From positions 186,001-250,000 of the forward strand of contig NZ_KQ434756.1 of NCBI RefSeq assembly GCF_001270745.1: a stretch of DNA of 64,000 bases, read 5' to 3'. Position 1 is the first letter of the stretch. Each line of letters begins with the position of its first letter. This DNA is from Jiangella muralis. Its GTDB lineage: Bacteria > Actinomycetota > Actinomycetes > Jiangellales > Jiangellaceae. Made by a program: the position numbers and the translations under genes. The notes under the pieces were generated by a model that searched no databases, was not told the origin of the DNA, and saw nothing but the letters and a program-made list of their open reading frames with translations. Shown here piece by piece: positions 1,993 through 15,102 of the stretch.

Positions 1993-2022
1993 AGCATAGG
2001 GTGGGCGCGCTCAGTTCTCCAA
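1993..2022 (-). promoter_or_regulatory. Candidate promoter of the tRNA-Glu/tRNA-Asp unit
   Basis: On the minus strand TTGGAG (-35) is followed after 18 bases by TATGCT (-10, plus-strand 1993-1998), about 50 bases upstream of tRNA-Glu. The -35 box overlaps the 3' end of the phosphoesterase gene. Found by eye, so only suggestive. Confidence 0.4.
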
Positions 2023-3558
2023 ATCGGGAGCTGGGGACGGGTCTTCCGGGCCCTGGGCTGCGCCGTCGTCCTCGTCGGCCTGGTGGCGGTCGATCTCGGC
2101 GCTGGTCCGGCCGAGGCCGCCGAGGGTGAGGTCGTCCCATGCGACCAGCTCTTTCGTCTCCGGATTGAAGTAGAGCACCGACAGGGCGACCGGAGTGGGA
2201 TCTTCGTCACGTAGGCCGCGCAGTCCGGCGCCGCCGGTGGAGCCCTGGACCATGACGCGAGTGCCGTCGTCAAGGACGTAGGTGTCGCGTTTGTGGGCGT
2301 GCCCGGACAGCACCAGCGGGGCGATGCCGTCGAACAGCTCGGCGTTGCTGGGGTCGTGGTAGACGATGACGTCCGGCGGCGGGTCGACGTCGGCGGCTTC
2401 GTCGGCGAACTCTTCGCTGCCCTCGCGCAGCACCTCGTCGGGGACGCCGCGGACGGACTTGTCCGGCGTGAACCGGGGGTCGGGCGCGCCGAGGAACCGC
2501 AGCCCGGCCACCTCGACCGGCTCGCCGTTCAGGACGACGGCGTTGGGGGCGGCGGCGACGGCGGCCGCGGTGGCGACGGAGTCGTGGTTGCCCTTGACGA
2601 ACACGTAGGGCCGGCCGAGGTCGGCGATGGGGCGCACGTAGGAGTTCTCCAGCGGCGTGCCCTGGTCGACGATGTCCCCGCTGTCGACGATGGCGTCGAC
2701 GGAGTACTGGTCGGCGACGGCTCCGATGATGTCCCACGCCGCCGGGTTGAGGTGCAGATCGGACACGTGCAGCACCCGGATGGTGTCGTCGTTGGGCTGG
2801 AACGTCTGCAGGTTGAGCGTGGTGTCGTAGACGGCGGCGACGTTGGCGACGAACCCGGCGAGTTGGTCGGCGTAGGCGTCGAAGTTGTTCGCGATGTCCT
2901 CGGCGTTGCCGATCAATTGCGGCGCGGCCGCCAGCGGGCCGGTGTACGCGGGCTCGCGGACGGCGTCGGAGTTGTACGTCAGCGCGACCATCCCGTAGCT
3001 GCCGAGCACCGCGCCGGCCGCCACGCCGGCCGCCAGCATCGTCCGCCGCACGGACCGCAGCACCAGCGCCGCCGCCAGCGTGCCGCCGATGACGGCCGTG
3101 ACGGCGGCCCGGATCGCGGCGTCGACGAGGACGTCCTCGATGCCGGCGGCGATCTCGTCGTCGAGGGTGGACAGCGTGTACGGGTCGTCGACGTAGCCGT
3201 TGAGGCCGTCGAGGTCGACCTGCCGCACGGAGATGTCCAGCGTGACCGGCCCCGAGTGGGTGTCGAGGACGACGGCGCCGACGGGGTCGAGATGGATGAC
3301 GGACTCGCCGGTCAGCGTCGGCCGGAACGCGACGTCGATGGCCAGCGGCCCGACGTAGGTCTGCGTGGTGCCGGCGATGACCAGCGCCACCCAGGCGCCG
3401 GCGAGCGCCAGCACGGCCGGGCTGAGCAGCGTGAACGTGCGGCGCAGCCACGACGGCCAGGTCGCCGGGCGCGTGTAGTCGCGCCACGCCCGGCGCGGCG
3501 CCGGTTCGCCCGGCGGGCTCGTCTCCGTCACCACGTCCACGCCTCGTTGGTAACACAT
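2011..3558 (-). CDS. Membrane-anchored metallophosphoesterase
   Basis: A 515-residue protein. Hydrophobic segments at about 45-63, 150-168 and 173-195 anchor it, with a likely extracytoplasmic loop between the first two. The C-terminal half is a calcineurin-like phosphoesterase with the metal motifs in order: SDLHLN (266-271), SGDIVD (293-298), KGNHD (322-326) and SGHAHKRDT near 418. It hydrolyses a phosphoester with a di-metal centre; the substrate is unknown. The acidic proline-rich tail is probably disordered. Start is uncertain: ATG at 3558 or a GTG at 3534 behind gaggcgtgg. The 3' end carries the candidate tRNA promoter. Confidence 0.85.
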   Translation of the reverse strand: MCYQRGVDVVTETSPPGEPAPRRAWRDYTRPATWPSWLRRTFTLLSPAVLALAGAWVALVIAGTTQTYVGPLAIDVAFRPTLTGESVIHLDPVGAVVLDTHSGPVTLDISVRQVDLDGLNGYVDDPYTLSTLDDEIAAGIEDVLVDAAIRAAVTAVIGGTLAAALVLRSVRRTMLAAGVAAGAVLGSYGMVALTYNSDAVREPAYTGPLAAAPQLIGNAEDIANNFDAYADQLAGFVANVAAVYDTTLNLQTFQPNDDTIRVLHVSDLHLNPAAWDIIGAVADQYSVDAIVDSGDIVDQGTPLENSYVRPIADLGRPYVFVKGNHDSVATAAAVAAAPNAVVLNGEPVEVAGLRFLGAPDPRFTPDKSVRGVPDEVLREGSEEFADEAADVDPPPDVIVYHDPSNAELFDGIAPLVLSGHAHKRDTYVLDDGTRVMVQGSTGGAGLRGLRDEDPTPVALSVLYFNPETKELVAWDDLTLGGLGRTSAEIDRHQADEDDGAAQGPEDPSPAPDLEN

Positions 3559-3959: not shown

Positions 3960-4561
3960 CGGAAGAGGGATGGTTCGGGCGCCGGGCCGGGAACGCCTCT
4001 CGGCGCAACGGCCGCTCGTAGCGGCTATAAATGGGACCCGGGGTTACCACGGCCCGCCGCCCAGCGAGAGCCCCGAAAGGCTGTCGCCAGTACCTGAAAC
4101 TACCCGATGTCCGTGGTTGTTCCCAGCGTTGTGGCGTGGGAAGGATCACCTTGACGGCGCGCGGGCGGGCGGTTCGTCACGCTTGCCGGGCACTTCCCGA
4201 GTCGTCCGGGTTGCGTCGAGCGTCGTCATCGCCCGCTCGAGCCTCATGACGCGCCGCACGTCGTTGACGGGCACGCGTCGGCGACCAGCCGGTCGTGTAC
4301 GAGTGACGGAGATCGTGGAACCGCCGCCCACCCGCGCCCGGCGAGCACCTCCCAGAGGGCGGCGACCTCAGTCTCGACGGATCTCACCGCTAGCACGGCG
4401 ACGTTGAGACCCACCACGCTCTGCGGCATTCCGCCCAGAGTGACCTGAGGCGCCGCCCGCGGTGGCGGGATCTGGTTTGTTCTATTGCAGTCGCGGCCGA
4501 CGCAGGCATAAGGTCGAGCCAACCGGCGTGGGCAATTTGGCACACAAGCCAGGAGACACAG
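3960..4561. other. Gene-poor junction at the left edge of the accessory block
   Basis: About 600 bases without an intact gene. A small hairpin (gccgct 4011-4016, agcggc 4020-4025) lies near the left end. A decayed integrase end lies at 4146-4331 on the minus strand. GC content falls at the right edge, just before the 807-residue gene. I see no tRNA or tmRNA in it. Confidence 0.5.
4146..4331 (-). pseudogene. Remnant of a tyrosine integrase C-terminus
   Basis: In this frame, plus-strand 4274-4203 encodes VPVNDVRRVMRLERAMTTLD. It resembles the end of actinobacterial phage integrases (VPxxDVQRxMGHERASTTLD), which contains the third catalytic region. The key GH is replaced by RL and the catalytic Tyr is missing (TLDATRT instead of TLDxYTH). 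Just upstream, a different frame reads SLVHDRLVADA, reminiscent of the SLHDLRHTAA box. This suggests a frameshifted, dead gene. Based on motif resemblance only. Confidence 0.4.
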
Positions 4562-6985
4562 ATGACGGTTCGATCGAAGCTCTCCCGCGCTGAGGTCGAG
4601 GCGATGCTATCAGACGAACAGCGCGAGAAGCTCGCGTCGCTCCATATCTTGAGCTACATCCTTGCTCAATCCGTCATCACGGCCGATTACAAGCCTTCAG
4701 ACGACCTGCGGAACGCGATCCGCCCGTCCCCCTACGGGCAGTGGCTTCTCCAGCAAAGCAAGAAATATGACTTTGAAGTTCGCGAGGCGCGACTCGCGTG
4801 CCTTTTGGAGCTTTTCCACTTGGACGTTCTCGTCGACATCGAAACGACGGACGTTCAGTTGTTAGCTACGGCGATTACAAAGGAGATTCGCACAGGTCGA
4901 TTGACGTTCGCGATGCCGTTCGGCCCTGCCTTGTACCGAAGGGCGGCCGACCTCTTCCCCGACGAACGTAGATCGCTAAACTCGGTCGACACCCAACGAC
5001 TCTTAGACGGGCAGCCGACTGGAGTGTTTCACTTCGGGAACTGGCTTGGCGGCCCATGGGGTCTGTATCTACATTCGGCATCTCGCCGGATCCGGCCAAC
5101 CCATTTTGTGCCGCTCCAACACTGCCATGATGTTTCGTGCTGGGCGGTTCACCGAGTCATGCTTAGCTCGGACTCATCGGCCGAGATCATCAAAGCCCGT
5201 GCGGACATCAGAAAGGCACTGGAGTCAGAGGGTGAGGAAGCCTCAGAGTTTGCTGTTGTCATCTCTGATGCCCTCCGAAACCCAGTCGAGGAGTTCGATC
5301 CCGACAGTCTCGGAGCGATCGGATACCTGATCGGCGATGCGCTCGGCGATGCCGAACTGCGCGTACTCCTTGAGTACCTGCTCGACGGCCACGACGCAGC
5401 GAATATACGCCGCCAGGTCGAAGCTCTCACCAGTCTAAGAGGGAAGGCAACCCTCATCACCGAAGCGCGAAACCGCCCTGAGTTGCTCCAAATGATCCTA
5501 CTGGCGTCAGATGAGCAGATCGCGACCGCTCTGGATCACCTTCTCTTCGACAAGAGCGACCAGAACCAACTTACGATCCCGACACATGAGGTCCGCAGGA
5601 GTGTGTTGACTCGCGCGACCTCGTCGGCGTTCGGCAGCCGACCGGAACTGTCGCGCTTCGGAGTCCGGACGATCTCGCGCGCGGCTCCCGCACCCCTGAA
5701 GCTCCGTCGTCTGATCGATTCCATCTACGGACCATCTCTCACCGGATCCGAGTCTTCCGCTGAGCTTGACTGGCAGCTTCGCTCGATCCCAAGCGCTTCG
5801 ACGGACGCAAGCTTGACCGAGTACCTGCGGAAGACACCACCGGAGATCGCACTCCAACGCTTGGTGCTAAACACACGGGAGAACGTCAAACGGGGAGCAG
5901 CCTCTCTGTCCTTGAACATCGAAGACGGCGTGAACGATCTCGAACTCGTGCAGCGGATGTTGTGGAAACTAGGTTTTGACGTCATTGACGCGGACGAATT
6001 GCACGAAGACTTCTGGCGACATAGCGATCGCCTGCGAAAGGCTGCAGAGTCCGCGAGTGTGAGCACATCCGTTGGCGAGGAAGAGATCAGCGAGATCTCA
6101 ACGAGCTACTTTCGCGCTCTGGAAAAGTTGCTGGCGGACACTCTTGTCTTCTGCGTTTGGGCGTTCACGACAGACCATGTCCGCGACCAGGATCCCTACC
6201 TTTATGTCGACAATAATGTGGCCCTTGACCGAACCACGAGAGAGCTCGGCGCTGGCCTTGCCGTACGGAGAGACATTTACGATGCGAAGCTCAGTATCGA
6301 GAAGTGGACGCTTCAGCCATTATTCAGGGGATTCGAGGTTCTGTCCGACGTTCTTGGAGGCCTTGAAGCTCGCGCGCTCGAGCTAGAACGACCCGCCAAT
6401 TCTGTGCCTGATTTCGCCAATGAAGCCACCGTTCAGCGATTCCCTTTCAGGCACACTTCACCTTTTCTGGATCTCACTGCTGCGAGTCGAGAATTGATCC
6501 ATTCGACCTTGCAACGCGCGACGGGAGGACTCCTAGAATCAAACGCCACGGAGGTGCGGAACGGCCTGTTGCACTATCGACGCTCCAACGTTGATCTAAA
6601 GAATCTCGTCGGCTCCCTCGAGGCAGTCGAGAGCGTGATTCGAAATCTTGAATCGCAGGGCCTCGTGCGGATCGTTTACAGGCGGCAACGCGTAGAGACC
6701 GACCGCTGGGGCCGCTCTCTCCATACACTCGCCGATGCCACTGGAAGCGAGCGAGCCATCAGTCGACCTTCGGCCTACGCGTGGGTCAACCTTCCAAGGC
6801 TAGACGAGCCTCAATACCTGATGACCATCGCGCAGTTCGATCAATTCGGTGAGTATCTGCGCTTCCTTCCCGGATCCGACTCGGATTACCGCGAGCTATG
6901 GACCGGCGTTCCCCAGCGGAGGCAGCGGTCAGTCACCGGGAGAACTCCGAGCGACTCCGACGGGGCCGTTCCACTTCAGGCGTGA
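4562..6985 (+). CDS. Large unknown protein with an HEPN-type RNxxxH motif
   Basis: An 807-residue, mostly helical soluble protein I do not recognise as a whole. Near the C-terminus R666-N667-G-L-L-H671 sits in a helix (ATEVRNGLLHYRR). That is the Rx4-6H pattern, with a polar residue after Arg, that marks HEPN ribonuclease domains; it is preceded by long helices, as in HEPN bundles. No Walker motif, transmembrane segment or signal peptide is visible. The start is well supported: aggag lies just upstream of ATG 4562. Base composition is clearly lower in GC than the surrounding chromosome, indicating transfer. It stands alone on the plus strand, facing the DUF4041/GIY-YIG pair. An antiviral or toxin role is inference from motif and neighbours. 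Confidence 0.75.
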   Translation: MTVRSKLSRAEVEAMLSDEQREKLASLHILSYILAQSVITADYKPSDDLRNAIRPSPYGQWLLQQSKKYDFEVREARLACLLELFHLDVLVDIETTDVQLLATAITKEIRTGRLTFAMPFGPALYRRAADLFPDERRSLNSVDTQRLLDGQPTGVFHFGNWLGGPWGLYLHSASRRIRPTHFVPLQHCHDVSCWAVHRVMLSSDSSAEIIKARADIRKALESEGEEASEFAVVISDALRNPVEEFDPDSLGAIGYLIGDALGDAELRVLLEYLLDGHDAANIRRQVEALTSLRGKATLITEARNRPELLQMILLASDEQIATALDHLLFDKSDQNQLTIPTHEVRRSVLTRATSSAFGSRPELSRFGVRTISRAAPAPLKLRRLIDSIYGPSLTGSESSAELDWQLRSIPSASTDASLTEYLRKTPPEIALQRLVLNTRENVKRGAASLSLNIEDGVNDLELVQRMLWKLGFDVIDADELHEDFWRHSDRLRKAAESASVSTSVGEEEISEISTSYFRALEKLLADTLVFCVWAFTTDHVRDQDPYLYVDNNVALDRTTRELGAGLAVRRDIYDAKLSIEKWTLQPLFRGFEVLSDVLGGLEARALELERPANSVPDFANEATVQRFPFRHTSPFLDLTAASRELIHSTLQRATGGLLESNATEVRNGLLHYRRSNVDLKNLVGSLEAVESVIRNLESQGLVRIVYRRQRVETDRWGRSLHTLADATGSERAISRPSAYAWVNLPRLDEPQYLMTIAQFDQFGEYLRFLPGSDSDYRELWTGVPQRRQRSVTGRTPSDSDGAVPLQA

Positions 6986-7273
6986 ACGAAGGGATCTCCG
7001 GAACCGAGGCCCTCTGGCGTGGGGGCGTTCCCCAGAATTGGCTCTAACTCGACCTATCCCTTCGGGCCGTCACACCAGGCCAGTGCGTCATTTCGCCGCG
7101 TGTGGCCAGGTACAGCGGAAGGCCTGGCACTCAAGTGCGTCGGCCTCAGTTTGACGCGTTCTCCTCAAGCGGACCGGGTAGCTCTGTCGAGCGGTCGCGG
7201 CCCGCTGGTCTGGCGCCTCCGGTCGGTCTCCGATGGTTGCAGTCGGCTCCGGCCGGTGTGACGGATGGAGGCG

Positions 7274-8722
7274 TTACCAGGCCCGGACGCTGGTCACATC
7301 GGGCCCCGGCGTTGCCGGCTGGTCCTCCGAAAGCTCGGGCCACCACCTGCTCCGGCTCTGGTAATACTCCGATGCCTCTGGCGTCTCGTTGAACTCCAGC
7401 AAGCCGCCGACCCTCTGTGTCAGGACATCGCGAACCTCGGCGGGGGTTGCGAAGAAGAACTCGCGACGTTCGTTGGCGAAGTTCACCCTCCGGTCAGCGA
7501 AGGCCCTGTGCAGCTCGTTCTCGAGGGTGACCGCGTCGTCGGAGAAGAACAGCGCGTGGGTGTCGTACAAGAACGGAACAGATGCGTCGCCGAGCTCGCG
7601 GACGCGGTCGCGAGGCTCAAGGCGCCGCGTCATCCCAATTTTGACGATGTTCGGACCCAGGGCACCGAGGTTGCTGATGACATATATGTATCCGGCACGG
7701 ATGTTCGCGGTCCGGTAGTCGTTGGCCTCGATGGCCTGCTCTATCTCGGCCAGCCGGACAGCAAGGTCATCGACCGCGTCGAGGTCACCATTCGCGCGAA
7801 GCTGCTCGAGTGCAGACTCATAGTGGGCCCTCTCCTTCTCCAACCGCTCGCGTTCGGCGGCGAGCTCCTGCGCGGCCTTGCGCTGCTCACGCAGCAGCTC
7901 GCGCTCTTCGCGCGCCCGTTCCTTCTCCTCCTGAACTTTCATTTGATAGTCCGCGGTGAGCTCAAGTTCCTCGACTCGGAGCTGGTGGTAGTCCGGATTG
8001 ACGCGCATCTCCATGATGACACCGAGCTTCTCGATAGCCTTCATCGCGTTCTCCAGCCGCTTCTTCGCGGTCGAGATGTTCCCCGACCGCAGCGACCGGA
8101 CGCAGTTGTCCGCCTCGGCGTTGTAGGCACGCAGCATCAACTTGGATAGATCACCGACCATCTTGCGGCCCTTCGCGAGCGACCCGTCGAAGGTAAACAG
8201 GTCAGCCGCGAGTACGGCCTCGCCCACTTTCACGATCTCGTCGATACGAGCGTTGATGTCTGCGAGACGGCCCTTATACGCAGCCGCGTCCTCAAGTGGA
8301 TGGTGGTACCGGTAGATGCCGACGTCCTGAAGGACGCGCTGGTCGTTCAGCTCGACCAGGTCGCCACCAGACTGAATGGCAGCAAGGGCGGCCTCGAGGT
8401 CTGCGATGCGGTGCAGCAGCGCTGACGTGTCCACCGGCGCAGATACGGGAGCGGAAGAAGCGGCGACCGGCGGCGTGGGAGGATTCGGAGGTTCGGACGG
8501 CAGCATGGGGACTGCATGCTGGACCGGTACCTCGCTCAAGGGCGGCGCCAAGTCCGGGGATTCAGCGGAGACCTCGGTCGATGCAGCAAGGTCATGGTCG
8601 GGGAGCCACAGCTCCCAGCCCTCCGGCATCGGCGGCCACGCCGGGTCAGGCTTCCAACCCGGCGGCGGCACCCACCCGGCCGGCGGATGGGGCCATCCCG
8701 GTGGCGGATTGAACCGCATCAT
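7274..8722 (-). CDS. DUF4041 and GIY-YIG (T5orf172/MUG113) domain protein
   Basis: A 482-residue protein in three parts. Residues 1-40 are proline/tryptophan-rich with PPGW repeats. Residues about 95-335 contain a DUF4041-like region and a long charged coiled coil (AREERELLREQRKAAQELAA and around). From about 343 the GIY-YIG fold follows: AGYIYVISN, then NIVKIGMTRR, a later Glu in ENELHRAF, and the FFxATPAEV end typical of T5orf172/MUG113 domains. Such nucleases cut DNA or act as endonuclease-like accessory domains. It is the second gene of a pair: its ATG overlaps the stop of the upstream gene by four bases (8719-8722), implying translational coupling. Its biological role is not known to me. 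Confidence 0.85.
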   Translation of the reverse strand: MMRFNPPPGWPHPPAGWVPPPGWKPDPAWPPMPEGWELWLPDHDLAASTEVSAESPDLAPPLSEVPVQHAVPMLPSEPPNPPTPPVAASSAPVSAPVDTSALLHRIADLEAALAAIQSGGDLVELNDQRVLQDVGIYRYHHPLEDAAAYKGRLADINARIDEIVKVGEAVLAADLFTFDGSLAKGRKMVGDLSKLMLRAYNAEADNCVRSLRSGNISTAKKRLENAMKAIEKLGVIMEMRVNPDYHQLRVEELELTADYQMKVQEEKERAREERELLREQRKAAQELAAERERLEKERAHYESALEQLRANGDLDAVDDLAVRLAEIEQAIEANDYRTANIRAGYIYVISNLGALGPNIVKIGMTRRLEPRDRVRELGDASVPFLYDTHALFFSDDAVTLENELHRAFADRRVNFANERREFFFATPAEVRDVLTQRVGGLLEFNETPEASEYYQSRSRWWPELSEDQPATPGPDVTSVRAW

Positions 8723-9993
8723 TTGCTCCGCTGCCGCACGCCGCGACTGGTGTCAGTTGGGGTCAGGTCGAATGGCGACTTCGAGACTGCCGCGCCCAGG
8801 TGCTCCAAGGTCGCGGCTGGCACGACGCTGCTCAGATCGAAGGAGTTGAAAGTCTCCCGGTCAGCAGCGACCACTACCAGCGGCACGAATTCGGGCTGAC
8901 CGGTCGCCGGGGCGACACGGTTCACGCCGACCGTGAGGGCGACGGAGTGAATCTTCCCTGCCCGGTCCGCCTCGAACACCTCATGCAGACTGCGGAGCGC
9001 AACCTGGTGCACCGCAGACGCATAACGATCCTTCTGAGCCTTCACTGGAAGCTGCGTCGCGACGATCTCGTCCTTGGCCCTCACGTACCGGCATTCCTTC
9101 ACGGTCGGAAGGGAGGTCGGCTCCGGAATACTCGCTGAGAGCATCAGCTCTCGGGTGGCGAGGTCGAAACTGTGGTCATGCTCGACCGGGAACACGTCCG
9201 GGTACACCGAGTTCGACAGCACGATGCCGACGTACTCCTCAATGGCGTAGTCCACATCGAACGCAAGGTCGTTGATGAACTTCGTCAGTTCCTCGTTCTT
9301 CTGCGCGGCTTCGGTCTCACGCTCAGCGCATTCGGCCTTGTACGCCTTCTCGGCCTCGGCGACCTTCGCTAGGCGACCGGCATTGCTCTTCTCGTGTGCC
9401 GCGACGAGGGCAACGTGGTCGGCATGCTTCTTTGTGTTGCTCTCGCGCCAGTGCCGCACCTGTCCGTCGTGGTCGGCCTTGGCCTTGGCGACGTCCTCCG
9501 CGTGGCGCTTCTTACCGCCGAACACGCCTGACAGACCCTTGGGCGCCGGAGGCTCCTCGTACATCGGCTGCGGCGGGTACACGAGCTCCGGAACCGGCGG
9601 CAAAGGGGTTCCAAGCGAACCGGGGTCGAACGGCGGATGCTCGACGGTGACCTTCAGCGACTCCAGATCGACAAAGTCATCGAAGTCGAGGGTCCAGGCG
9701 AGCAGCGTATCGATGTCATCGTAGGAGGACGCCAGATCCTTATTCAGCGCGTCGACCTCAGCAGTGCGCGCCTCAACGTGTAGACGGGCAGATTCCCTCT
9801 CTGCGGCCTTCCGCTGAGCCTCAGATGCGCGAGTGGCCGCTGCTCGCGCCCGCTCCGCCGCCCTCTGGGCTCGCTCGACTTCACGCACGGCAGCATTGTG
9901 AGCCCGCACCGCGGCGGCCTCCTGCTGCCGGCGCCGCTTCTCCGCCTGCTGCGCCTGGTAGTTCAACTCTGCGAAAAACCCACGCTTGGCCAT
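8719..9993 (-). CDS. Coiled-coil protein of unknown function, partner of the DUF4041/GIY-YIG gene
   Basis: A 424-residue cytoplasmic protein. Residues about 10-85 form an Ala/Arg/Glu-rich coiled coil. A proline-rich stretch (FDPGSLGTPLPPVPELVYPP) follows, then a second coil around 160-220. The C-terminal half is globular and includes INDLAFDVDYAIEEYVGIVL and SKSPFDLTPTDTSRGVR. I know no function. The start at 9993 is chosen because gaggggg precedes it on the minus strand and the product begins MAKRGFFAELNYQAQQAEKR; the longer open frame upstream is not protein-like. It is translationally coupled to the nuclease-domain gene by an ATGA overlap, so the two products probably act together. Confidence 0.8.
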   Translation of the reverse strand: MAKRGFFAELNYQAQQAEKRRRQQEAAAVRAHNAAVREVERAQRAAERARAAATRASEAQRKAAERESARLHVEARTAEVDALNKDLASSYDDIDTLLAWTLDFDDFVDLESLKVTVEHPPFDPGSLGTPLPPVPELVYPPQPMYEEPPAPKGLSGVFGGKKRHAEDVAKAKADHDGQVRHWRESNTKKHADHVALVAAHEKSNAGRLAKVAEAEKAYKAECAERETEAAQKNEELTKFINDLAFDVDYAIEEYVGIVLSNSVYPDVFPVEHDHSFDLATRELMLSASIPEPTSLPTVKECRYVRAKDEIVATQLPVKAQKDRYASAVHQVALRSLHEVFEADRAGKIHSVALTVGVNRVAPATGQPEFVPLVVVAADRETFNSFDLSSVVPAATLEHLGAAVSKSPFDLTPTDTSRGVRQRSK

Positions 9994-10218
9994 GACCGCG
10001 CCCCCCTCTGACGCCCGGATTCGGAACGCATAGAACCGTAGACCGAGTGGTCGACACATGGAAGGGAGAACCCCCCGATCGCGGCCTACGATCCTCGGAT
10101 ACGTCATTTCGCCGCGACTCGGGCATGGCTGCAGGTGCGGCTTAGCGTCGGGGCAGGTGCCTCGCCTCGTGTGCGGCGATCCGTGGCGAGGCTTGGTCTC
10201 ACTCGCCAGGTGCATGCC

Positions 10219-11130
10219 ATGACCGCTACGACGCTTCTCCCGTTCCAGCCCGACACGATGACACCGGCCCGGCGGGCCGCCGTCTCCTACCTGGCCCGCT
10301 ACACGGGGCACACCCACACCCTCTACGCCTACCAGCTGCGCCGCTGGTTCGCGTGGTGTGAGACCAACGGTCTGGACCCGCTGGTAGGCATCGAGCGCGC
10401 TCATGTCGAGCTCTACATCCGACATCTCGGTGATTCAGGGCTGGTGGCCTCCTCGGTCAACACCTCCATGCACGCAGTACGCGGGTTCTTCAGGTTCGCC
10501 CACATCGACGGCCTGATCGTGGCCGACCCTGCGGTCTACGCCCGGCTGCCGAAGATCCACCGCGACGAGTCCCGCACCCAAGGGCTGGACCGGCTCGAGC
10601 TGATCCGGTTCCTCCAGATCGCTCCCACCATCAGCGTTCACCATGGCGCGCTCGCCTACCTGCTGGGCATCAACGCCCTACGCGCCTCCGAGGCAGCGGC
10701 GGTGCGCATCGAGGACTACGCCGAGACCCTGCGCGGACACCGGGTGTTGCACTTGGTCGGTAAGGGCAACAAGCCCGCCACCATGCCGCTCACCGTGCCG
10801 GTGCTCCGGGTGTTGGAGGCCTGCCGCGGCGAACGCACCGGAGGGCGCTTGGTGCTGCGCCCGATGACCGGCAAGCCGATCGACAGACGCGACGCCTACC
10901 GGATGGTCGCGCGCATCGCGAAGACCGCCGCGATACCGCGCCATATCAGCCCGCACTCGCTGCGACACGCCGCGATCACCAACGCCCTCGACGCCGGCGT
11001 CCCGCTGCGCGACGCCCAGATCCTGGCCCGCCACGCCGATCCACGCACCACTGAGCATTACGACCGAGCCCGCGGCAACCTCGACCGTCACGGCGTCCAC
11101 TTCCTCACCGCCTACGTCGCCGGCGTCTAG
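10219..11130 (+). CDS. Tyrosine recombinase / site-specific integrase
   Basis: A 303-residue protein with an N-terminal SAM-like core-binding domain (about 15-105) and a catalytic domain. Active-site residues appear complete: R155 in NALRASE, K182 in GKGNK, H246 and R249 in PHSLRH, H272 in ARHADPRTTEHY and the nucleophile Y281. The size and HSLRH box match XerC/phage-type integrases. The start is ATG 10219; the frame upstream is not protein-like. It diverges from the coiled-coil/DUF4041 pair. No excisionase gene or obvious attachment repeat is seen nearby. It probably moved part of this accessory block, but this is inferred from position. Confidence 0.9.
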   Translation: MTATTLLPFQPDTMTPARRAAVSYLARYTGHTHTLYAYQLRRWFAWCETNGLDPLVGIERAHVELYIRHLGDSGLVASSVNTSMHAVRGFFRFAHIDGLIVADPAVYARLPKIHRDESRTQGLDRLELIRFLQIAPTISVHHGALAYLLGINALRASEAAAVRIEDYAETLRGHRVLHLVGKGNKPATMPLTVPVLRVLEACRGERTGGRLVLRPMTGKPIDRRDAYRMVARIAKTAAIPRHISPHSLRHAAITNALDAGVPLRDAQILARHADPRTTEHYDRARGNLDRHGVHFLTAYVAGV

Positions 11131-11389
11131 CCCAACACCGCGTCCCATGCGCCCAGGTTGACGCGCGCCAACCGTGGTATGGGCTGTGTTTAGTCAGATC
11201 GACGGTCGGCGGCGCGACCCTTCGCACCGCCCACGACAGCCTCCGAACGGCCGCGAGAGGGACCCTTGATCAAAAAGCCAGAACTAGGCAGGAGCCAGCG
11301 CAATCACTCGCGTCGCACTGCTCACCGGCGTGCTTGGCAAGCAATCGGGGCGATCCGCGGATGCGGAGCGACCTCGCCCGGCTCGCGCG

Positions 11390-13066
11390 CTACGTCGGTA
11401 GATCTCCAAGGATCTTGCGCACTTTCACCAACAGATTGTCGTCGTCGCTGAGAAGCACTCGGACTGCCTTTTCGTAGAGATCCAGATTCTTGAAGCCAAG
11501 AGCGTGAGCGACGGCCGTACGAAGGCCGCTATCGCGCACTGAGTACCCACGCACGATTGCCTCGTAGTCCTTTGAAGCGACTAGGCCGGCGAGCTTCTGA
11601 TGCTCAGTCGGGTACGGAGACGCGAGACTGATCGGAAGATCCACTCCGCCGCTGATCATGTCCTCACCGGTTGGCATGCTGGCCAGTACCTGACTGCGCA
11701 GAATCTTCACGGCATTCACCGAGGCTAGGTGCTGCACCGTGCTTGCCTTGAGCGTTTCGATCGCCTTGTCTGAAACGGTCGCCTTCAGTGCTGCCGCATC
11801 CTCCCCCAAGGTTGCCGCCTGACGCTCCGCCACGGCGTCCACGACGCATGACAGATAGTAGAGGTTTTCGACCTCATCGACAGGCAAGACCAAGATCTTC
11901 TTGGCTGCGAGCGCACTGATCTCTTCTGGCGAACGAGCATCTCCATCGAGAATGCCCCGACCGTCGACCCAGTGGTAGGCATCGACCTCGTTCAACCCAG
12001 TTGTTGCTCGCTTGACCTCTTCGGAGCCGCCGCATGGGACGACAGTCCAGTCAGGAAATATCAGTCGATACATGGGAAAATCAAGGCTGGATGCCTCGCC
12101 CTCCACGAACAGCAACTGGCTACGACCTCCCAAAATGGCCTGACGAACCGAGTCGGGAATCTCACTGGCCTCTGAGTCAATCTCTAGAGTCCAACCGGTG
12201 GCCCTGCCGTCGTGCCATGAAACGGCGCTCACAAAGCAGACGGTTGTGCCGGAGGGCTCCAGTTTGCCGATGAGGTCTAGATCGTGCGTCAGCAATACGA
12301 ACGCGCAATCGTCTCGCTCACGCATCAGGGAGGCGACGAAGTCGGACGAGATCGCACGATGTAGATGGCGCTCCGGCTCATCTACGATCTGGACACTATC
12401 AGGAGGAGACAACAACACCTCCGCCGCAAGGAGGAAGGCTCCTTTCTCGCCATCCGACATCTCCGAGATCGGATAGGCGACCCCTGTCTCACGAACAGCC
12501 TCGAACTCGCCCAGGTGGGTCACTCGAAAACCAATGTCCAGATTGGCTGAAGCGAAGACCCGCGCGACTGTAGTCAGCATCGACTCTTCGACCGACGATG
12601 TCTCTTGGCCAGCGTCGACGAGTTCAGCAATCCGAGCGTTCCGCCCGTTGACCCTTCCGAGAAGGTCGTAAAGGATCTTTGACGAGCGCTCAGAGTCGCC
12701 GTTGACCTGGACTCTGGACCTAGGATCGGAGTCCCACGACGCAAAGGCTGGCAACATCTGCGCACGCTGGCTAGCGGTCATCTCCGTGCCGGCTGATTGC
12801 ATCCAAACCCGGCGATGCGCAAGTACCCGCGTGACCGGAGCTTGTGAGCCACCACGGTTGATGCTTAGCCAATGGCTGAGCGCCGACTTGCCAGATCCGT
12901 TCGGTCCGACAACTACAACTGCCCGTCCGGGGTACGCCGGCAGTTCTACCGATCCGTCTCCGAGCAGGTTGGGCACACTCCACTGGAGTATGGACTCTGT
13001 AGCGTCCCGCGGCGTTTCGGTCACTGCACGTCCTGACTCGTTCGCGGCGATGTCTGTTCCCGGCAT
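11390..13066 (-). CDS. AAA ATPase fused to DUF4435 (TOPRIM-like); PARIS-like candidate
   Basis: A 558-residue two-domain protein. Residues about 30-310 are an ABC/SMC-type ATPase: Walker A GPNGSGKS (54-61), signature SEMSDGEKGA (201-210), Walker B VQIVDEPE (225-232) and H-loop LLTHD (258-262). Residues about 315-558 look like DUF4435: LLFVEGEASSLDF with E322/E324, a second acidic cluster VDGRGILDGD (D368, D374, D376) and PVDEVENLYYL. Acidic residues in that order suggest a TOPRIM-type nuclease. The same two activities form the PARIS anti-phage system (AriA ATPase, AriB DUF4435), for which single-chain versions are known. Other ATPase-DUF4435 or OLD-type proteins remain possible. It sits alone, in lower-GC DNA. 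Confidence 0.8.
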   Translation of the reverse strand: MPGTDIAANESGRAVTETPRDATESILQWSVPNLLGDGSVELPAYPGRAVVVVGPNGSGKSALSHWLSINRGGSQAPVTRVLAHRRVWMQSAGTEMTASQRAQMLPAFASWDSDPRSRVQVNGDSERSSKILYDLLGRVNGRNARIAELVDAGQETSSVEESMLTTVARVFASANLDIGFRVTHLGEFEAVRETGVAYPISEMSDGEKGAFLLAAEVLLSPPDSVQIVDEPERHLHRAISSDFVASLMRERDDCAFVLLTHDLDLIGKLEPSGTTVCFVSAVSWHDGRATGWTLEIDSEASEIPDSVRQAILGGRSQLLFVEGEASSLDFPMYRLIFPDWTVVPCGGSEEVKRATTGLNEVDAYHWVDGRGILDGDARSPEEISALAAKKILVLPVDEVENLYYLSCVVDAVAERQAATLGEDAAALKATVSDKAIETLKASTVQHLASVNAVKILRSQVLASMPTGEDMISGGVDLPISLASPYPTEHQKLAGLVASKDYEAIVRGYSVRDSGLRTAVAHALGFKNLDLYEKAVRVLLSDDDNLLVKVRKILGDLPT

Positions 13067-13321
13067 CGTGATTGCCCGTTGGACATTAGTGCCCCGAGCG
13101 GAACCGCGTCACTCCGCCGCATGTCGGCCGTCGGCGTTCGCACGGGACCGGCGCAGGTATCGCCTTGACCGCAGTCAGTCACCTTCGACAACTTCTTCAC
13201 AGCTCAACGATGACCACACGGACACCCGGTGTCTCGCCCGGCCGGGCGACTCGCTTGGAAGCTACGATGCGCTCCACGCTTTCGTCGGCCTGCGGGCGGG
13301 TTGACGAACCAGTTGGCTGTG

Positions 13322-13510
13322 TCAGCCTGCCAGATCGAGGGCGATGGTGATCTCGGTCTGGTAGTCCTTCGCCGAGACGTGCGCGTGCCAGTCGGGCCCG
13401 CCCTCGGTCAACATCTGGTTCAGCGCGTCTCGCAACTCCACCGCTTCATGGCGGGTCAACCACAAGTAGACGGCAGGTAGTCGCTGGCCTGGCTCTCCCT
13501 CGATACGCAT
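13322..13510 (-). CDS. Small conserved-looking hypothetical protein
   Basis: About 62 residues starting MRIEGEPGQRLPAVYLWLTR and ending in YQTEITIALDLAG. It has good coding character (alternating hydrophobic strands and the helix HEAVELRDALNQMLTE) but no family I can name. The start is the ATG at 13510; the frame extends 8 codons further to a TTG. It lies between the ATPase-DUF4435 gene and the zinc-ribbon gene, all on the minus strand but well separated. Confidence 0.5.
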   Translation of the reverse strand: MRIEGEPGQRLPAVYLWLTRHEAVELRDALNQMLTEGGPDWHAHVSAKDYQTEITIALDLAG

Positions 13511-13682
13511 GGGTCCCATGGTGCAACGGGTCAACTCGCAGACGAAGCTGTGCGGCTACACGAGACCCGCGGTCGTGTTGACAGCGGACCTCCAGTCGCC
13601 TTACCTAGCGGGCTTCATGAGGCGCTCATCTGCCGCGATGGACATGGTTGAGAGGCGAGCGCCGGCTGGCGGCACCTTTGCA

Positions 13683-14420
13683 TTACCGCTCAGCGGCTGT
13701 GACCTGTTCTTCGCATGCGTGCCGTACGTCGTGGCGGAGCGCTTCTTCGGTGCGTCCCCACCCGCCGGCCCACTCGTCGATCAGGCCGTATGTGCGGCCC
13801 AGTGGCAGTTCGTACAACGCGGTCGCGAAACCGCCAGCGGCCACGAGGTGGTCAACCAGGGCAGCAACCTTGCGCTCGTTCAACGCACCGGCGAGGCAGC
13901 GACGGGCAAGGTAGTTAAACGTCCGATTGACGGCGGCAACGGGATTCGCCGGTATCGGTACACCCATCTCGTCCAGCGCAAGCGGTAGCAGGTCCTTGAT
14001 CCTGTATGGATCGTCGCCGTGCTCACCCGCCAACTCGCGCAGCCCGTCACCGTCGTAACCTTGCACGAGCCACTCCGCTGCCCACCGCGGGATGCGCTTG
14101 AGCGGCACACGCTCCAACGCGTAGAACGCTGCAACGTCCTCGGGCGCTGGTGGTTCGTCATCGGCCGGCATCTGTCCCTGAACGACGAGGTGAGGCCACT
14201 GCGCCCCGCACGCCTCGTCCAGGGACGCCGCCCGGCGTTCCCAGTACAGATCAACCGTTGTGAACAAGTCGTCAAGCGACGGTGACCAGAAGCCGCTGTG
14301 GCAGTTCTCGCACTCTGCGAACACCCGCAGGGAGTCGATCCGAACCATCATGGCCAACTCGGCACTGGAGCAAATGGGACATACGCTCTCGCTGATCACG
14401 GCCACGACAACATGATGCAT
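13683..14420 (-). CDS. Unknown protein with N-terminal zinc ribbon
   Basis: A 245-residue protein. CPICSS (about 14-19) and CENCHSG (about 37-43) make a four-cysteine zinc ribbon. The rest is an acidic, Trp- and Ala-rich helical domain (RIPRWAAEWLVQGYDGDGLR, KVAALVDHLVAAGGFATALY). I do not recognise the family and propose no function. It lies at the right side of the accessory block. The first in-frame ATG is taken as start; a downstream GTG is also possible. Confidence 0.65.
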   Translation of the reverse strand: MHHVVVAVISESVCPICSSAELAMMVRIDSLRVFAECENCHSGFWSPSLDDLFTTVDLYWERRAASLDEACGAQWPHLVVQGQMPADDEPPAPEDVAAFYALERVPLKRIPRWAAEWLVQGYDGDGLRELAGEHGDDPYRIKDLLPLALDEMGVPIPANPVAAVNRTFNYLARRCLAGALNERKVAALVDHLVAAGGFATALYELPLGRTYGLIDEWAGGWGRTEEALRHDVRHACEEQVTAAER

Positions 14421-14599
14421 GCCAGGGCGTCGCGTCGCGTCGGCAGCTGCTCGTCTTGCAGCCCGACGTACTCATCTGCCACGCATCGCGCACTCATATC
14501 CGCGTCTTATCGCCGCGATAGACGAGGTGTTGAGGGCCAGGATCTCGGCCGCGAAGAGCGAGATCGCGGGCATCACGCTGCGATCCGAAGATTGACGCG

Positions 14600-14621
14600 C
14601 CCAACGGTGTCGAGCGTTGGG
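14600..14621. repeat. Inverted repeat downstream of the DUF3558 remnant
   Basis: Arms cccaacg (14600-14606) and cgttggg (14615-14621) are perfect complements. They are flanked on both sides by the direct repeat tgacgcg (14594-14599 region and 14622-14628). It lies about 30 bases past the stop of the DUF3558 remnant on the minus strand. No T-run follows, so termination is uncertain. Confidence 0.4.
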
Positions 14622-14650
14622 TGACGCGAGTATCAAGCGCCGTGCACGCG

Positions 14651-15025
14651 TCAGCCGATCTTCTCCATGACGTCGTCGAGCGCGGGGCGCCCGGCGTCGC
14701 ACGGCTCACCGGGAGTCGCCGCGGTGTCGGTGTCTTCCACCATGACGTCGACCTTCGTCTGGTCGTCGACGGTGAACGAGTACAGGCAGGTCATCTTGGA
14801 GTCGTAGCCGACCTGGACCGGGTGCTCGTTGATGTCCTCGGCGTCTTGGCTGTACTCGTCGATCGCGCCCAGGCTGTAGGCGAAGTCGACCGCGACACTG
14901 ATCGACCGGTCCAGGCTGTCCCACACGCAGGCCGACACGCCAGCCCGGTCCCTCGGCGCACCGTCGGCCGGGGTCAGGTCGGACGCCCAGCCAACCTCCG
15001 AGGGCGGGTCGAGCGAGCGAGAAAC
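14651..15025 (-). pseudogene. N-terminally truncated DUF3558-type lipoprotein gene
   Basis: The open frame from 15025 down to the stop at 14651 encodes a DUF3558-like C-terminal domain: SACVWDSLDRSISVAVDF, then KMTCLYSFTVDD, and the closing GEPCDAGRPALDDVMEKI. DUF3558 proteins normally begin with a lipoprotein signal and an earlier Cys-rich segment. Here an in-frame TAG at 15026-15028 cuts the frame, with no ATG above it. Only a GTG at 14938 could start a 95-residue protein with no signal sequence. I read it as a remnant; a sequencing error is the alternative. Confidence 0.5.
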
Positions 15026-15102
15026 CTACGGGAGGGTGATGTCGAGAATCTGGAGGCGGCTCCGTCCCTGGGTCACAACCACCGAACTGAAGGATGGCAG
15101 CG

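Follow-up and report, generated by a model that had tools for sequence, protein, structure and literature searches.

A probable compact single-chain PARIS (AriAB) protein encoded on a mobile island of Jiangella muralis

Our analysis of a 64,000-nucleotide stretch of the Jiangella muralis genome (contig NZ_KQ434756.1, positions 186,001 to 250,000; hereafter the window) indicated that one of its genes probably encodes a member of the compact single-chain PARIS (AriAB) anti-phage family and was acquired on a mobile island. Proteins of this kind are already catalogued, and the product of this gene, here called the window protein, is an added member. Searches of the open-licence PMC literature found no experimental study of any compact AriAB. 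If it works as proposed below, the compact form would be a PARIS-type defence packed into a single gene of about 1.6 kb and carried by prophages, small plasmids and islands in chromosomes. The positions of all features in the window are listed in Table 1.

Domains and motifs of the window protein

An earlier note, made from the sequence of the window alone, had described this gene as an ATPase-DUF4435 fusion with intact ABC/SMC-type ATPase motifs followed by acidic motifs that fit DUF4435, and our searches bore this description out. The ORF is intact and encodes 558 aa. Pfam AAA_21 matched it with 44.7 bits (cut-off 27), and DUF4435 (PF14491) matched residues 319-416 with 33.7 bits (cut-off 27), the latter match spanning just model positions 5-102 of 238 (98 positions). 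In the TOPRIM domain, which follows after about residue 315, the acidic motifs are FVEGE (residues 320-324), VDGRGILDGD (367-376) and VDEVENLYY (396-404). In an alignment of 26 members, made up of the window protein and 25 relatives that are each 20-33% identical to it, the Walker A, signature, Walker B and H-loop motifs are conserved; residues G54, K60, S204, E207, E232, H261, E322, D376 and E400 do not vary, and D374 is almost invariant.

The best PADLOC model for the window protein was that of the single-gene AriAB, PDLC02982 (203.4 bits, E 1.5e-60), which aligned residues 50-452 with model positions 48-458 of 570. This supports the proposal, also made in the earlier note, of a PARIS-like single-gene system. 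Both PDLC02982 and DUF4435 were matched by the window protein and by each of its 25 aligned relatives. With the PADLOC model for stand-alone AriB the window protein scored 21.3 bits (E 6e-5), and PHROG 25246, which is labelled ABC transporter in the category moron, aligned with residues 48-549 (E 2e-60). In a phmmer search against the PDB, AriA and AriB were not among the matches listed; these were ABC-type ATPases, some further P-loop proteins and, through its ATPase part, a single OLD nuclease (E 0.1). A scan for promoters and terminators stayed at chance level, and the RNA fold just 3' of the ORF was no better than those of shuffled sequences (z 0.10).

Single-gene AriAB fusions were reported together with PARIS in 2022 (PMC9122126). 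The window protein has the same ATPase and DUF4435 chain as these fusions (PDLC02982, 570 positions), and no difference of kind was found. Of the features by which PMC9122126 and PADLOC define the single-gene form, it has an AAA_15 or AAA_21 domain (here AAA_21) with DUF4435 in the same chain, a match to the fusion model and an acidic site aligned with that of AriB, and its modelled nuclease half fits the AriB fold moderately well.

Table 1. Features identified in the window and the evidence on which each is based.
Feature	Positions	Strand	Basis
Acquired island (ends approximate, set at the loss of similarity to sister genome G399)	4445..15038		Sister-genome comparison
PD-Lambda-1-like gene (DUF4041 + T5orf172/MUG113)	7274..8722	-	PDLC03976 348 bits; DUF4041 75.8 bits
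PADLOC mREase_IV-like gene of the island	8719..9993	-	PDLC03663 104 bits, residues 167-557 of long ORF
Tyrosine recombinase/integrase of the island	10135..11130	+	Phage_integrase E 1.4e-19
Window protein, compact single-chain AriAB (ABC-type ATPase + DUF4435 TOPRIM)	11390..13066	-	558 aa, ATG start, unbroken frame
ATPase domain, residues about 25-298	12173..12994	-	Model pLDDT 86; AriA 8v46_B structure match
Walker A GPNGSGKS, residues 54-61	12884..12907	-	Motif reading and alignment
ABC signature SDGE, residues 204-207	12446..12457	-	Motif reading and alignment
Walker B VDEPE, residues 228-232	12371..12385	-	Motif reading and alignment
H-loop histidine H261	12284..12286	-	Invariant in 26 members
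DUF4435 TOPRIM nuclease domain (predicted) and helical C-terminus, residues 300-558	11390..12169	-	C-terminal model, AriB match
E322 (TOPRIM glutamate), counterpart of AriB E26	12101..12103	-	Alignment, hhalign, profile vs AriB chains
D374-G-D376, TOPRIM DxD	11939..11947	-	Alignment, hhalign
E400 of VEN motif, aligned with AriB EN motif	11867..11869	-	Alignment, hhalign, profile

Predicted structure and the acidic site

The whole-chain model of the window protein had a pLDDT of 86 and a pTM of 0.56, and because of the latter value the mutual placing of the ATPase and TOPRIM halves is unsure. Among solved structures, the ATPase half matched Septu/retron PtuA chains with Z up to 15.5, CFTR and other unrelated ABC ATPases with Z up to 13.9, and AriA 8v46_B with Z 13.4 (rmsd 4.2, 234 aligned). 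Since PtuA, AriA and unrelated ABC ATPases score alike, the ATPase half alone names no family, and the idea that this half alone shows kinship with AriA was rejected.

The C-terminal half, modelled alone, had a pLDDT of 90.7 and a pTM of 0.85. Its best match was AriB 8ux9_A (Z 10.7, rmsd 5.9, 211 aligned) and its second AriB 8v46_D (Z 10.3, rmsd 7.3, 216 aligned), which come from two PARIS complexes and were followed by OLD C-terminal regions with Z 7.3 (6nk8), 7.1 and 7.0; helical parts can inflate these Z values, as the tool itself warns. Foldseek also placed 8ux9_A first, with E 0.016 and nothing below 0.001. We regard the AriB fold match of the modelled nuclease half as moderate. In the structural comparison with AriA-AriB, which the earlier note had named as a check, the C-terminal half thus agreed with a PARIS-like protein, being nearest to AriB and not to OLD; for the ATPase half, AriA was not the top structure.

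By hhalign, the 26 compact C-termini aligned with 8 stand-alone AriB-type sequences (probability 96.6, E 5e-10, 106 columns), with acids at the same positions in E322 (of EG), the DxD and the EN motif, at an identity of about 10-15% between the compact nuclease half and AriB. The stand-alone AriB-type profile matched the solved AriB chains marginally (E 0.17-0.19), and there the EG glutamate corresponds to AriB E26. The remaining AriB acids, counted on that profile alignment, are D88, E90 and E122, where the window protein has D374, D376 and E400. The E26A mutant of AriB does not cut tRNA, as reported in PMC12409363. As read from these alignments, the putative TOPRIM acidic site, whose absence the earlier note would have held against a PARIS-like system, is complete in the window protein.

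Comparison with two-gene PARIS and the long fusion

Two-gene PARIS of the E. coli B185 type shares with the window protein the TOPRIM acids, DUF4435 and the ABC ATPase. However, AriA and AriB are separate proteins there, whereas the window protein is encoded in one unbroken frame. The two forms also differ between Walker A and the signature. This distance is 150 residues in the window protein and 120-169 residues in compact members (median 153, measured in 44/47), but 243-362 residues in two-gene AriA (measured in 7/15); the remaining 3 compact and 8 AriA rows gave no distance as the search pattern missed one or both motifs. The compact form thus has 75-240 residues fewer than two-gene AriA in this stretch.

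The long AriAB fusion (PDLC02981, 694 positions) also has an ATPase and DUF4435 in one chain. Its representative in our set, L124 (692 aa in a 709-codon frame), scored 364 bits with PDLC02981, whereas the window protein scored 58 bits. These scores indicate that single-gene fusions are of at least two kinds, both of which are modelled by PADLOC. On a plasmid of Paraburkholderia sabiae (L013:2342-6626), a compact fused AriAB gene comes straight after an ariA-ariB pair, and therefore the two-gene and compact PARIS forms can coexist.

In a quick TOPRIM tree the compact forms fell on one side with a support of 34. In a careful, OLD-rooted tree they fell into two clades, with supports of 92/80 (the clade with the window protein) and 90/94, while stand-alone AriB and the long fusion made up one group (89/84) that joined the second compact clade with weak support (81/59). 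A single compact clade, when tested, was not rejected (p 0.28). Three OLD rows stood apart from 56 DUF4435 rows (100/99), the OLD branches being long. The phylogeny, which the earlier note had named as a check, is thus compatible with one clade of compact forms or with two. L124 lay beside the stand-alone AriB rows in both trees, on a long branch and with an unsure placing. Many rows of the trees are on long branches, of which the program warned. Eleven OLD-type loci were tried, and usable rows came from 3 of them. The trees were built without L109, L118, L121 and L127 (only the locus plus strand was read), L129 (its frame lacks Walker A) and L082 (the same gene as L018); the careful tree also leaves out L090_B, L113_B, L119_cf, L046_cf, L111_cf, L030_cf and L022_cf, which are long or near-duplicates.

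Because the OLD-rooted tree joins AriB and the long fusion, with weak support (81/59), to one of the two compact clades and leaves the other outside, the compact form may even be the older one, although a single compact clade was not rejected (p 0.28). On this reading of the sequences, two-gene PARIS may have arisen from an older OLD-like single chain by splitting and by growth of the AriA stretch.

Proposed function

In two-gene PARIS, as many as three AriB are bound by a hexamer of AriA. When AriA is changed by Ocr or another phage protein, it lets go of AriB, which then forms dimers and cleaves tRNA (PMC11455837; PMC12409363). By analogy, the ATPase part of the window protein would oligomerise and keep the nuclease part inactive, and a phage-made trigger would alter the ATPase assembly. 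The TOPRIM parts would then pair and cleave RNA, in all likelihood tRNA, which would bring translation and with it phage growth to a halt. The toxic TOPRIM nuclease is in this analogy probably a tRNase, tRNA being proposed as the target from the distant AriB (identity about 10-15%). Activation by release of a free nuclease is impossible in compact AriAB, because sensor and nuclease are one chain, and activation would instead be a rearrangement within the assembly that proceeds without release of a subunit. Since much of the AriA segment that separates Walker A from the signature is absent from the compact ATPase, the trigger of the compact form is probably recognised otherwise than by AriA.

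It is conceivable, though we lean against it, that compact AriAB is an architectural class of its own, namely a minimal single-chain form with no long AriA stretch, another trigger and release-free activation. A chain that is unable to release its nuclease would offer a clean way to ask if PARIS needs such release in order to become active.

Comparison with OLD nucleases

We consider it unlikely that the window protein is instead an OLD-type (class 1) nuclease with ATPase and TOPRIM in a single chain, with DNA as its target and no relation to PARIS. Class 1 OLD nucleases do have the identical domain order, ATPase then TOPRIM in one chain, and OLD C-terminal regions came next after AriB in the structure comparison. 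In addition, the OLD review (PMC10568477) leaves it open whether single-gene AriAB counts as an OLD class of its own. However, OLD-like_TOPRIM (PF20469) was not among the Pfam matches of the window protein up to E 1, whereas DUF4435 was over its cut-off, and the C-terminal half fits OLD (Z 7.3) less well than AriB (Z 10.7). An identity with class 1 OLD was rejected. The separation of the OLD rows in the careful tree, with three rows on long branches, also argues against it. The HMM searches thus turned out as expected of a PARIS-like protein, with AAA_21, DUF4435 and AriAB models matched, and the present evidence sets the compact nuclease half with AriB. If the compact form works as proposed, it would make directly testable a question raised in the same review (PMC10568477), namely whether the mode of action of single-gene AriAB is that of OLD or that of PARIS.

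Relatives and size class

Matches to the window protein were found in 51 plasmid records at E 1e-8 and in 2 phage records, both of one Oenococcus phage. A profile scan of genomes gave at least 10 loci, 7 of them with relatives and the other 3 (L025-L027) with proteins that look ABC-F-like by sequence, and a profile scan of viral contigs gave at least 19 loci; with the window protein alone as the query, no relative was found in the viral contigs. Members come from records of Pseudomonadota, Bacteroidota, Bacillota, Actinomycetota and Campylobacterota. The nearest relative found, on a Kocuria rosea plasmid, is 41-42% identical to the window protein, which is thus a distant member of the PDLC02982-type fusions.

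No second copy was found in its own genome, where three other matches were partial and of ATPase type (E 2e-6 to 0.009) and where DUF4435 was found once. The gene was present in 0/11 other genomes of the genus at E 1e-15, and the relatives sample yielded a match in 1/59 other genomes. Across the phylum, 2/396 sampled genomes had DUF4435, its own genome included. The occurrence of the gene is sporadic.

The earlier note had called 558 residues compact and had considered a divergent branch on that account; this length proved to be ordinary. The 47 compact members, including the window protein, have 459-646 aa, and the shortest of them (L015) has a start that is probably annotated too late. The compact set is without the ABC-F-like L025-L027, and L044, which is the same protein as L043, was left out of set A3. 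Among 398 Pseudomonadota genomes, a sample that includes the centre genome, picked for having the gene (2/14 control genomes also match), DUF4435 was found at 24 places in 23 genomes, 17 of them over the Pfam cut-off. When sorted by frame length, these places fall into separate size classes: 13 frames have 537-597 codons, 9 have 283-335, one has 709 and one 446. Ten of the 13 (L108, L111, L112, L114-L117, L119, L120 and L128) read as compact fusions; besides these, L082 is the L018 gene, and L118 and L127 were sorted by frame length. The idea of an unusually compact protein was rejected in view of these 537-597-codon frames and the 459-646 aa range, and a divergent branch is not needed to account for the length, as the single-gene form is already catalogued (PDLC02982; PMC9122126).

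On a Rothia terrae plasmid (L007:5974-7619), a compact AriAB is annotated as two ORFs (1080 and 567 nt) with a one-base overlap, which is either a natural split or a frameshift.

Neighbourhoods of the relatives

In two prophages (L031:5572-10125 and L040:5055-10621), compact AriAB is flanked by a replication gene of gpA type on one side and a portal gene on the other, and is the sole called frame of at least 120 codons in the interval. The gpA-portal interval of P2-like phages is described as a hotspot for defence genes, occupied in P2 by old and tin (PMC9122126). Compact genes are also carried by E. coli and Salmonella plasmids of 5.3-6.5 kb; one of these (L009, 5,330 bp, E. coli) has the compact gene and three other listed genes.

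We counted 119 flanking ORFs at 23 loci, leaving out L030 and L038 as near-copies of L029 and L037. Among PHROGs, portal, terminase and integrase led with 3 ORFs each; among Pfam families, Phage_portal came first, also with 3 ORFs. The presence of phage genes beside the compact gene is partly due to selection, because 16 of the 23 loci came from the viral collection. PADLOC matched 112 models on these ORFs at E 1e-10, none of them on more than one ORF, which argues against an obligate partner gene.

These data also bear on whether a protein of this same family might serve in plasmid maintenance or another cellular role instead of phage defence, which we judge to be quite unlikely. Several relatives are on very small plasmids, where an addiction role is conceivable, and archaeal OLD relatives with a cell-cycle role have been reported (PMC12796447). 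Against this are the gpA-portal placing in the two prophages and the sporadic occurrence (1/59 in the relatives sample, 0/11 in the same genus).

It is highly improbable that the window protein belongs to the IbfA/HEC-04 family. IbfA is a 518-aa ATPase-TOPRIM protein of an IncI1 plasmid, and abortive infection has been reported for pUA1135 IbfA (PMC12111858). With about 520 aa, members of this family are similar in size to compact AriAB and have the same domain order. On plasmid R64, the 518-aa gene beside a ProQ-type gene was taken as ibfA from its size and neighbour, and the ATPase half of its product aligned with the compact profile (hhalign probability 97.5). However, the best PADLOC match of the R64 protein was HEC-04 (141 bits), it did not match DUF4435 at E 0.01 or better, and its TOPRIM half did not align with the compact profile (hhalign probability 0.2). 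As no match to DUF4435 was found and the TOPRIM halves did not align, we rejected this identity and regard IbfA/HEC-04 as an analogue from another family. That the window gene is a catalytically or functionally decayed copy was likewise rejected as very improbable, since the frame is unbroken and the key ATPase and TOPRIM residues are conserved.

The island around the gene

The earlier note had also placed the gene in lower-GC DNA near an integrase, which our analysis confirmed. The ORF has 59.0% GC and a GC3 of 0.66, whereas 1-kb windows outside 4-15 kb have 66-77% GC and the neighbouring gene 2011-3558, common to all 12 genomes of the genus sample, has a GC3 of 0.94. The integrase gene is about 260 bp from the AriAB gene.

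Both lie on an island of about 10.6 kb that is absent at the same site in two sister genomes of the genus, G399 and G405. Both of these share the two flanks at 86-96% nucleotide identity, but the flanks there enclose different DNA, about 3.4 and 5.8 kb in length. Compared with G405, similarity stops at 4156 and resumes at 14649. The ORFs at this site in the sister genomes include a probable luciferase-like oxidoreductase. Because each of the three genomes has different DNA there (L073 in G405, L074 in G399), the site resembles a local hotspot of integration. When direct repeats were searched for possible attachment sites, the 20 families listed out of 51 were all imperfect and included no clear att pair.

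The island also carries a PD-Lambda-1-like and an mREase_IV-like gene. For the latter, a start at base 9993 (Met at residue 145) is likelier, because the ORF 8719-10425 runs into the integrase gene. The start codon of the PD-Lambda-1-like gene overlaps the stop codon of the upstream mREase_IV-like gene. The two genes (7274-9993, reverse strand) are probably co-translated, and they perhaps make up one two-gene defence unit. The adjoining restriction-type gene would suit a system that guards against anti-restriction proteins, although this is circumstantial.

At the left end of the island there is an 807-aa ORF with 58% GC (4562-6985, forward strand). Searched to E 1, neither Pfam nor NCBIfam gave a match for it; its PADLOC match was marginal (E 0.066), tblastn against plasmids gave none, and it is a possible candidate for a defence gene of a new type. 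A 245-aa ORF inside the island (13683-14420, reverse strand), whose family matches were sub-threshold, has a possible N-terminal zinc ribbon (CxxC...CxxC).
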